64,000 nt of DNA, taken from Bifidobacterium sp. ESL0800. GTDB taxonomy: Bacteria; Actinomycetota; Actinomycetes; Actinomycetales; Bifidobacteriaceae. Where the stretch lies: NCBI RefSeq assembly GCF_029395355.1, contig NZ_CP113913.1, positions 1,488,001 through 1,552,000 on the forward strand, given 5' to 3'. Position numbers and translations under genes: made by a program. The notes below the pieces were generated by a model. It ran no database searches and was not told where the DNA came from. It saw only the letters and a list, made by a program, of their open reading frames with translations. Of this stretch, positions 551 to 59,677 are shown one piece after another. Position 1 is the stretch's first letter. Each line of letters begins with the position of its first letter.

Positions 551-626
551 GTCACTTCTTGCGCGCGATATGAGGTCAGCCGTGTAAAAAGTGACAATTA
601 GCCTGTCTATTTGTCACCTTTTGCAC
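551..626. repeat. Palindromic intergenic element, 62-bp spacing
   Basis: GTGTAAAAAGTGACAAT (582-598) is an imperfect inverted partner of ATTTGTCACCTTTTGCAC (609-626). A second copy of the right arm, GTCACTTCTTGCGC, lies at 551-564, exactly 62 bp upstream of the matching stretch at 613-626. The expected left arm of the upstream unit is degenerate. The element sits between the activase promoter and the rpmB terminator. It matches the geometry of other palindrome arrays in this window. Confidence 0.55.
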
Positions 627-676
627 ATATCCGCCAAACGGCGCCGTGCCAACAAACCGTGTTGCGCCAAGGCATG

Positions 677-711
677 AAAAAACCTCCGACGCCGAAACGT
701 ACGGAGGTTTT
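677..711 (-). terminator. Rho-independent terminator of rpmB
   Basis: An 8-bp stem (681-688 with 702-709, AACCTCCG/CGGAGGTT) is followed on the reverse strand by a run of T opposite 677-680. It lies about 20 bases past the rpmB stop. Confidence 0.85.
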
Positions 712-731
712 CAAAATTGCTTTCCGCGTTT

Positions 732-926
732 TCACGCAACCACGCGCTGAACCTTGCCGGCCTTGAGGCACTTGGCGCACACGCGAACGCGGACGTTCTG
801 TCCGTCGATAGTGGTGTGAACCGACTGCAGGTTCGGGCTGAAGGTGCGCTTATTGCGGATATGTGAATGCGAAACGCTGTAACCGGTCTGCGGTCCCTTG
901 CCGCACACTGCGCAACGAGCTGCCAT
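732..926 (-). CDS. rpmB: 50S ribosomal protein L28
   Basis: A 64-residue protein with the L28 signature: it begins MAARCAVCGKGPQTG, continues with a SHSHIRNKRTF stretch and ends CAKCLKAGKVQRVVA. It is a component of the large ribosomal subunit. Two CXXC pairs (CAVC near residue 5 and CAKC near residue 50) mark it as the zinc-binding form of L28. The start is the ATG at 926, preceded by AGGGAG. It is monocistronic, with a strong terminator directly downstream. The identification is secure from length and sequence. Confidence 0.97.
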   Translation of the reverse strand: MAARCAVCGKGPQTGYSVSHSHIRNKRTFSPNLQSVHTTIDGQNVRVRVCAKCLKAGKVQRVVA

Positions 927-1661
927 AATGGACTCCCTAAACTGTTTTGACTTGCAAGTCTTGATGCCCCTATCCTGCGTTTTGACGCACAACAGCGACA
1001 CACAACTTATCAAGTATACAACCGGGGCCGACCAAGGACAAAGACAGTGTAATAACGCACGGTCTTTCATGCCCAACATTCGTCGTTATCATGACGTAAG
1101 CATAAAAAATCCCATCGAATACAAGCCATGTGGACCCATCCGAAAAATTATGCCCGCAGCATATATTATGAACGTCTTTTTTTAAAAATATTCTGTCGAA
1201 TTTTCGAGAAGAGAATCCTTTATAATATACAGTCGCATGATTTTATTCAATGTATAAATTCTATTTCATTCCTTAAATATGCAATCGATTTTCTCCAATG
1301 CTTACAGCGTAATATCAGAGCCCAACGGTTGACTCATTCAACGGGAATGCTAATATGCATGACTGTTCACTTACGGCTGACTCTTTTCATTTCACCGTCT
1401 CCATTCAACCGCTCAACTACTGATATCACCCTTTGCCGCCCACAACGACGGCAACGATAAACCGTACCGCGCGTCAAGGCAAAAATCCGCACAGTACGAC
1501 TCGGCGTTGACGTCAGAGCTTGTTTTATGTTCCAAATCAAAAGCCGAAACAAAAGAACCTTACGAATAACCAGTAGCCGATAATTAATAAAAATTCGTCT
1601 GTTATTCGTCAACTTTTCTTGTCGAATAACGTCATCAACGCCATCGCCGAGAAATGCCATT
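927..1661. other. Long AT-rich intergenic region without a convincing gene
   Basis: About 735 bases between rpmB (upstream side) and the end of the lactonase gene. Short open frames here lack ribosome sites and any recognisable sequence. It should hold the rpmB promoter at its left end. Near its right end the 8-mer CGAATAAC occurs at 1563-1570 and 1623-1630, with its reverse complement at 1601-1608, a weak form of the roughly 60-bp palindrome pattern seen elsewhere. I see nothing else. Confidence 0.5.
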
Positions 1662-58141: not shown

Positions 58142-58342
58142 TTACGAGGAAATACGAAAGACTCCCTCTGGCCCATCACGTTAGGGAATCGGCCCATTCC
58201 GCATGTCTCAGAGATACAAAACCGCAACCACATAGACAACGCCAGTGGAGGCTGAAACTTTTGGTTGCTGCTTCGGAGTTGCATCGGCTGAGCATAGAGG
58301 CGATAAAGGGCTTGGAAACGTCGAAAATCAAGGAATTGAAAG

Positions 58343-58413
58343 AGCGGATGACGGGAGTCGAACCCGCCTCTGAAGCTTGGGAAGCTTCCATTCTACCGAT
58401 GAACTACATCCGC
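58343..58413 (-). tRNA. tRNA-Gly (anticodon CCC)
   Basis: A 71-base cloverleaf. The acceptor GCGGATG pairs with CATCCGC, the anticodon stem GAAGC/GCTTC encloses loop TTCCCAA with CCC, and the T arm is GCGGG-TTCGACT-CCCGT. CCA is not encoded. It reads GGG codons. Confidence 0.95.
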
Positions 58414-58534
58414 AGTAATGTACCTGCGTTCACAAGCACATACAAAAGGAAAGTTTAGCACACAGGCGCGAAGGCACGCGCCATAAGACTCATCGATGAC
58501 TTCGAGTACCGATTGGCAACGACGAGCGACGCGT

Positions 58535-59491
58535 TTAATAAGCGACCTGCGCCGGGCCCTCTGAACCCAGCCGGTCGCCCCGTGGCCCGGCACCTACACC
58601 CTGCATTTCCTGAGCCATCTGCATCAGGCGATTGATACGATCCTGGGTCGGTGGATGCGTGGAGAAGAGACGGCTGAAGCCCTCGTCGGAGAAGGGGTTG
58701 GCAATCATCATCGCGGCGGCGGACTGGGTGCCGGCGGTCTGCGGCATCGGGTTGGCGGCCGCTCCGGACGTGATCTTATTGAGGGCCGAGGCAAGCGCTG
58801 CCGGGTCGCCGGTGAGTTTGCTGCCGTCTTCATCCGCGTCGTATTCGCGGGTTCGGGAAATCGCCAGCTGGATGAGCGAAGCTCCGATGGGCGCGAGAAT
58901 TGAGCTAAGCGCCACGCCAAGCAGCCCGAAAATCCCGGAATCGCGGTCGTCGTTATCTCGCCCGCCGCCGAAGAACATCAGCATGTAACCCAGATACGTG
59001 ATTACCGTCGCCATCGCACTGGCCACGGCGGAGGTGAGGATGTCGTGGTTATAGACGTGCATCAGCTCGTGGCCGAGTACACCGCGCAACTCTCGCTCGT
59101 TCAGAATCTGTAGAATGCCCTGCGTGCAACATACGGCGGCATGACGCTCGTTTCGGCCGGTGGCGAACGCGTTCGGGCTCATGGTCGGCGCGATGTAAAT
59201 GCGCGGCATCGGCTTGCCGGCGCGTGCGGAAAGTTCGCGCACAATGCGGTAAAGCTCGGGCGCCTGCTGCTCCGAGACCTGCTGTGCGCCCATCGAAGCA
59301 ATGGATATGCGGTCGGAGAACCAATAGGAGATGAAGGTCGAAGCCAGCCCGATGAAAATGTAATAAATGAGCGTGTCACGGCTGGCACCGGTAAGCCACC
59401 AAATAAGCATGATGATGGCCCACATCACCGCGAAAAGCAATGTGGTTTTAAGACCGTTCAAGTGGCCGTGTACTTTAATCTTGCCGCCCAT
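58535..59491 (-). CDS. htpX: Membrane zinc metalloprotease HtpX
   Basis: A 318-residue M48 peptidase involved in membrane-protein quality control. Two N-terminal membrane helices (about residues 16-34 and 42-60) precede MPRIYIAPTMSPNAFATGR and the active site GVLGHELMHVYNHD (HEXXH, near residue 142). Two more hydrophobic stretches follow, and SRTREYDADEDGSKLTGDP provides the third zinc ligand Glu. STHPPTQDRINRL is the C-terminal signature. The start at ATG 59491 has no clear ribosome site. Tandem palindromes lie directly upstream. Confidence 0.95.
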   Translation of the reverse strand: MGGKIKVHGHLNGLKTTLLFAVMWAIIMLIWWLTGASRDTLIYYIFIGLASTFISYWFSDRISIASMGAQQVSEQQAPELYRIVRELSARAGKPMPRIYIAPTMSPNAFATGRNERHAAVCCTQGILQILNERELRGVLGHELMHVYNHDILTSAVASAMATVITYLGYMLMFFGGGRDNDDRDSGIFGLLGVALSSILAPIGASLIQLAISRTREYDADEDGSKLTGDPAALASALNKITSGAAANPMPQTAGTQSAAAMMIANPFSDEGFSRLFSTHPPTQDRINRLMQMAQEMQGVGAGPRGDRLGSEGPAQVAY

Positions 59492-59567
59492 ACACCAAAG
59501 CCTAACGAATCAGCCTGTATTTTCGCTGAACGCGTGCTGATTCGCGCAGCATTCACAATTTCGAAGC

Positions 59568-59677
59568 TGCGATGAAAATCAAGAAAACGGCACCGAAATG
59601 CTGATTTTCATCGCATGTTCAATCGAACATGCGAGCAAACTCACGAAAACATGGGTAAAATGCTGATTTTCATCGCA
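59568..59677. repeat. Two tandem palindromes, 62-bp spacing, upstream of htpX
   Basis: TGCGATGAAAATCA (59568-59581) pairs with TGATTTTCATCGCA (59602-59615). A second right arm, identical over 14 bases, lies at 59664-59677, 62 bp on. Its degenerate left arm TGCGAGCAAACTCA starts at 59630, also 62 bp on. Between them is a smaller perfect hairpin, GCATGTTC-AATC-GAACATGC (59613-59632). It lies between htpX and the ferredoxin-NADP reductase gene, both on the reverse strand. No gene is seen between 59492 and 59821. Confidence 0.8.

Follow-up and report, generated by a model that had tools for sequence, protein, structure and literature searches.

According to the available part of one report (PMC7319586), AbiEi binds two 23-bp repeats placed 3 bp apart, and the promoter of Rv2827c contains four 23-bp repeats with 13 bp inside the pairs and 4 bp between the pairs, a published layout that by our own sum repeats every 63 bp. 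In the accessible text of another report (PMC2817692), repetitive extragenic palindromic (REP) sequences and bacterial interspersed mosaic elements (BIMEs) are described as alternating extragenic palindromes, dispersed in the genome and bracketing the gene of a nuclease or transposase (RAYT) that has its own motif, and the elements described here are alike in these respects. They are intergenic arrays of tandem palindromes in Bifidobacterium sp. ESL0800, studied from a 64,000-nucleotide stretch (hereafter the window; positions 1488001-1552000 of a single 2,250,646-bp contig, genome label G000). A previous sequence-only reading had named eight such loci, and tandem or inverted palindromes were present at all of them. 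Quite probably, the arrays are sites bound by proteins with predicted AbiEi-like and Vsr-like parts, and four genes of this kind in G000 each lie between arrays of their own motif. No description of the arrays or of the gene/motif pairing was recognised among the matches listed from the PMC literature; for B. animalis, a different spaced motif is named in the available part of PMC5217627.

Genes bracketed by their own motif

Motif families were designated A (array at window position 4914), B (10244), C (38921), C2 (22161), D (34256), F (551 and 14546) and G (59568), with E found outside the window. One gene is situated between two family A arrays in G000 and likewise in genome G103; its product has 325 aa, and its neighbours in G000 are an SRAP gene and an amylase gene. 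Relatives of this protein were detected in four genomes (4 in G000, itself included, 6 in G103, 8 in G097 and 4 in G096). All four detected G000 paralogs (about 325 aa) are bracketed by their own motif, namely A (gene at G000:778185-779159), D (G000:1786507-1787397), G (G000:101221-102183) and C2 (G000:1940596-1941537), each of which is also a family of the window. Over the 22 paralog loci of the four genomes, a repeat motif specific to the gene or gene type was observed in the flanks, mostly on both sides.

The same pairing was evident in other Bifidobacterium genomes, where matching repeats in the 600-bp 5' and 3' flanks (match score of at least 16) were found at 28 of 40 paralog loci, hand-picked from the listed best matches outside G000, G103, G097 and G096, compared with 26 of 435 similarly spaced pairs of control windows from the same loci (p=4e-21). 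At thresholds of 3 matches and 1 match, the numbers of loci and control pairs were 28 versus 27 and 31 versus 149, respectively. Matching flanks were also detected at three of six further Bifidobacterium loci and, outside the family, at 11 of 17 loci (four of them scoring 16.0-16.5; control, 23 of 431 in Kitasatospora/Streptomyces loci), whereas the single locus taken from a different genus of the same family had none. These loci were best matches and not a random draw.

The partner protein is predicted to combine an AbiEi-like winged helix with a Vsr/I-Bth0305I-like nuclease domain; its AlphaFold model had a pLDDT of 87.5, the candidate nuclease residues are invariant over the 22 paralogs, and a sequence search of the PDB gave no match. 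At E<=1e-10, profile matches were obtained for 94 of the 112 Bifidobacterium genomes (80 with a best E <1e-60, some of the weaker matches covering part of the protein only), and at E<=1e-20 for 122 of 297 genomes in a sample of the order. In public records, the family appears as 'hypothetical protein' or 'CTP synthase' (P0016, P0018, P0020 and others), the latter of which looks like a propagated misannotation. Membership in the type IV toxin-antitoxin systems of the AbiE kind, whose operon pairs the antitoxin with a nucleotidyltransferase toxin, is not supported, as no co-directional gene was found within 100 bp downstream at 39 loci, using a simple gene caller made for this analysis, which also served for gene orientation around the arrays.

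Further elements were observed upstream of the paralogs. TTCGACCACA or a near variant is present in 42 of 62 5' flanks, is absent from all 62 3' flanks and occurs in 2 of the 593 windows used as a control; it adjoins words of the TGTGGATAA type. With near variants included, CGACACGCC occurs upstream of 36 of 62 paralogs (15 of 593 in the control) and TGTGGATAA upstream of 37 of 62 (4 of 593); the three elements are exemplified at L152, L156 and L166. We take TGTGGATAA to be DnaA-box-like, and the upstream elements might link the expression of the paralogs to DnaA.

Spacing and architecture of the arrays

In 22 arrays of family A, the arms start at relative positions 0, 33, 61, 94, 122 and so on, i.e., with an alternation of 33 and 28 bp, a period of 61 bp and divergent spacers, some steps being 9 bp short. 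Positions 2-4 and 13-15 of the 18-nt loop are occupied by A/T in 90-100% of the 50 loops compared, and the loop centre is G/C-rich; the 13-nt gap is near random except at its ends. Arms facing each other across the loop differ at 2.34 positions versus 2.71 after shuffling (50 pairs, p=0.001), and those facing each other across the gap show no excess match (2.98 versus 2.93, 46 pairs, p=0.67); the unit of family A is taken as arm-loop-arm. The greatest similarity is between arms separated by one period (2.13 differences), which is the pattern that tandem duplication would give. In 39 of 48 loops the two A/T tracts share a strand (TT/TT 20, AA/AA 19), and in 5 they are complementary (AA/TT 5, TT/AA 0), loops within one array not being independent; this same-strand arrangement favours the reading of duplex shape over a longer hairpin.

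Among 62 gene-linked loci, some of which are orthologs and not all independent, a dominant direct offset in the range of 35-115 bp was obtained for 60, with 22 at 51-53 bp, 24 at 61-63 bp and none at 54-59 bp. These offsets are helically phased (R=0.80 at 10.25 bp, a value reached by none of 2000 null draws). The shared spacing noticed in the sequence-only reading is thus not a matter of chance, as 46 of the 60 offsets fall into these two classes. Its suggestion of a protein that reads geometry also gained support from the phasing across unrelated motifs, the fixed A/T tracts of the loop and the motif families that bracket their own AbiEi-like genes. The dominant periods fit the published operator spacings of the AbiEi family, and the arrays are therefore likely to be AbiEi-type operators in tandem, belonging to a branch that carries a nuclease. 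If 23-bp half-sites were separated by about 3 or 13 bp, periods of 52, 62 and 72 bp would result; by this rule, which was set after the data had been seen, the same 46 offsets deviate by no more than 1 bp from 52 or 62.

Dispersal, gene context and turnover

The palindromes had been regarded as private to each locus and as something other than a dispersed repeat family. All eight window arrays belong to dispersed families, and the second claim is contradicted by matches of the A and D queries across G000 and by the presence of family A in other genomes. In BLAST searches, the 4914 query gave 29 rows in G000 (itself included), where family A comprises at least 22 arrays, and units of this family were found in 4 of 112 Bifidobacterium genomes, G000 included. 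The D query gave 35 rows in G000 and 0 in 14 other genomes, and those of B, F, C and E gave 28, 8, 6 and 4 rows in G000, respectively; wide dispersal in G000 was seen for motifs A and D. The family B motif is CTTGGTGCACCAAG. A de novo repeat scan of 464 kb (the window plus 20 evenly spaced 20-kb stretches of G000) yielded 29 clusters versus 0 in one order-2 Markov control, six of which are by eye something else (L008, L013, L021 and three in L023), the remaining 23 belonging to the same few families. In samples of 502, 126, 119 and 60 kb from G000, G097, G103 and G096, respectively, the motif counts were 21/0/0/0 for D, 7/0/0/0 for C2, 10/6/0/0 for C and 5/0/2/0 for E, and 8 of 18 paralog motifs had no match in the sampled DNA of the genome that carries them. 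Rfam at gathering thresholds returned tRNAs and nothing else, and an NCBIfam search returned nothing useful.

About 17 family D arrays were found in G000, five of them within 20 kb around the D-type gene (G000:1772332-1791260), two being its own flanks. Three of the 15 non-flanking D loci lie within 20 kb of this gene (p=0.002), and such clustering is a hint of local spread. Pfam searches of seven genes beside D arrays identified sugar-enzyme, kinase, thioredoxin and G5 genes. A reading by chromosome domains, with D near the origin and A absent there, was dropped because the D-type gene sits inside the D cluster. Sites of TGTTTCACGTGAAACA and TTATCCACA were observed at L023 3383-9558, around 1.89-1.90 Mb; we assume the former to be parS-like, and the two together presumably suggest an origin region near 1.89-1.90 Mb.

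Most sites had been thought to separate convergent genes, which is the case for two of the eight in the window. According to the gene caller, 30 G000 arrays comprise 22 in tandem, 7 in convergent and 1 in divergent gaps, compared with 146, 39 and 45 of all gaps longer than 100 bp; the D-type gene in L022 was missed by the caller, so that an array counted there as tandem is in fact divergent and the divergent count becomes 2 of 30. The convergent share is not raised (7/30 versus 39/230, p=0.44), and an avoidance of divergent gaps was dropped as not significant (2/30, p=0.06). The proposed role in stopping transcription found no support in positions 1-16000, which hold four of the eight arrays and show 14 terminator-like sites versus 15.9 expected, one of them overlapping an array (10301-10324) and two adjoining one (14659-14681).

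The nearest named relatives by ddl, in a list that may omit very near records, are Bifidobacterium sp. ESL0682, MAG B-bin1, ESL0784, ESL0763, B. commune and B. bohemicum. Direct-repeat offsets of 61, 62, 63, 50/51, 71/72 and 62 were obtained at the six window loci caught by the automatic scan; those at 551-626 and 10244-10381 fell below it and were assessed visually. In the MscS/CAAX gap, the family A array (4912-5274) has six arm15-loop18-arm15 units with 13-bp gaps and a period of 61; the corresponding gap contains two units and an odd third in G097, an E array in B-bin1, one worn arm in ESL0784 and none in ESL0682, ESL0763, B. commune and B. bohemicum. The left arm of the third G097 unit (ortholog of window 5240-5300) repeats in mirrored form the 3' end of the adjacent CAAX-protease gene, which looks like the rewriting of one arm from the other. 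At the family D array (34228-34346, period 50-51), the G097 gap holds another family, the motif of its own paralog L164, and G103 has none. The C2 array (22159-22276, period 63) is missing from the orthologous gap of G097, where the empty site is not clean. The C array (38920-39084, period 71-72) is shared with G097, G103 having another palindrome there, and a paralog with C-motif flanks was found in G097 (L168) and not in G000. The family G array (59565-59678) has a period of 62, and the G/E-type gene is accompanied by motif G in three genomes and by E in G103, with the neighbouring coding sequence (putative aminotransferase-like, by eye) kept in all four. Family F is represented by one full unit at 582-626 plus a degenerate arm at about 550-562 (array 550-626) and by a variant with four arms (14537-14657) that is present in B. 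sp. ESL0784 (L071) and worn in G097. The B array (10244-10385) has three CTTGGTG(G)CACCAAG-type palindromes and differs little between the window and G097; a 9/27-bp tandem repeat, TTGAGGTGGGTGAGATGGGTGAGACGA, adjoins it at 10411-10570 and is mostly missing in G097. In other bifidobacteria, further repeats of the TGTCATCCTGAGCGA...GAGTCGAAGGATCT kind were noticed at L042 14275-19404 and L059 350-480.

Proposed mechanism, alternatives and known systems

At the level of sequence, the pairing of gene and motif, the dispersal of motifs, the rigid geometry, the change of motif between orthologous genes and the turnover of arrays are demonstrated. A possible mechanism is that each unit of about 48 bp consists of two half-sites of about 23 bp bound by two protein copies, and that the half-sites would share one side of the helix, separated by about 3 or 13 bp (hence periods of about 52, 62 or 72 bp). 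The nuclease part may cut or nick at or near these sites, repair or copying would then spread arrays and rewrite one arm from the other, and, once a gene switches specificity or is lost, its arrays might persist for a time as relics. In its widest form, an AbiEi-guided Vsr-like nuclease seeds, spreads and self-corrects its own phased arrays across Actinobacteria, its motif shifting with specificity and leaving a layered fossil record; this we put forward tentatively, at somewhat below an even chance. An offset of 71-73 bp was found in none of the 60 loci, although the window array at 38921 has 71/72. No partner gene was found for families B and F, which are not among the motifs of the four G000 paralogs; 12 of the 40 paralog loci lack matching flanks; and motif change tracks distant protein change weakly, the relation being weaker for the N-terminal than for the C-terminal part.

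It is unlikely that the arrays serve an AbiEi-like regulator as operators and are under selection for gene control, insulation or chromosome layout, with the nuclease domain playing no part in dispersal. Binding of AbiEi-family proteins to inverted repeats in their own promoters is described in the available part of PMC7319586, and the exact unit spacing is held at 22 dispersed loci, whereas the turnover of arrays between close species in the same gap, the invariance of the candidate nuclease residues, the arrays on the 3' side of the gene and the scarcity of arrays in divergent (promoter) gaps (only 2/30) all speak against it. A composite mobile element, with the arrays as its ends and solo arrays as gene-less relics, would account for the arrays that flank the gene on either side and for the D arrays near the D gene (3/15, p=0.002), but is improbable given that the G/E-type gene has the same coding sequence as its neighbour in four genomes, and that the single filled/empty pair examined was messy, with no target duplication seen.

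The sequence-only reading had also considered a local mechanism that creates and duplicates palindromes. Such a process may contribute, as the arms match across the loop and not across the gap and the G097 arm mirrors the end of a neighbouring gene; the dispersal of the arrays means that it cannot explain them alone. That replication errors (template switching) make and even out the arms, the copied unit setting the spacing, is very improbable, since a single motif recurs at 22 dispersed loci, unrelated motifs share the helical phasing and the arrays pair with one gene family. There is a slim chance that the arrays are bidirectional terminators or supercoil sinks between convergent genes, for which the A/T tracts on some arms speak; the unraised convergent share and the background level of terminator-like sites argue otherwise. 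A true REP/RAYT system has almost no probability: the logic of a gene bracketed by its own dispersed palindromes is the same as in the available part of PMC2817692, but the Y1 (HUH) tyrosine transposase family PF01797 was found in none of 24 genomes (G000 and 15 congeners included), the same search being positive in 5 of 14 control genomes. A GTAG/CGTC-type tag at the end of the palindrome is a further trait of REP/RAYT systems.

With the AbiEi-like/Vsr-like proteins as the probable partners, an abundant fraction of bifidobacterial intergenic DNA gains a likely partner protein, a candidate binding site and a spacing rule, and the paralog/motif pairs offer a natural series for learning how AbiEi-type proteins read DNA. 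Compared with the operators of the AbiEi antitoxin and Rv2827c, the protein is predicted to have an extra nuclease-like domain and the sites are genome-wide. The EDxHD/Vsr-like homing endonuclease I-Bth0305I differs in that the DNA-binding part is here predicted to be AbiEi-like and that many sites replace one target; no intron was seen at the loci examined. Homing endonucleases of the EDxHD kind cut alleles that lack their gene and are then copied into them. As in REP/BIME and RAYT systems (available part of PMC2817692), palindromy is kept while sequence drifts, and A, D, G and C2 show the trait of a gene bracketed by its own palindromes that are also dispersed elsewhere. The defining protein is different, i.e., an unrelated, predicted AbiEi-like plus Vsr-like protein instead of a Y1 enzyme, and the unit of about 48 bp, the helically phased gaps and the several motif families in a single genome are unlike REP. 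The findings hint that the REP/RAYT principle had more than one origin, the enzyme in the present case being unrelated.
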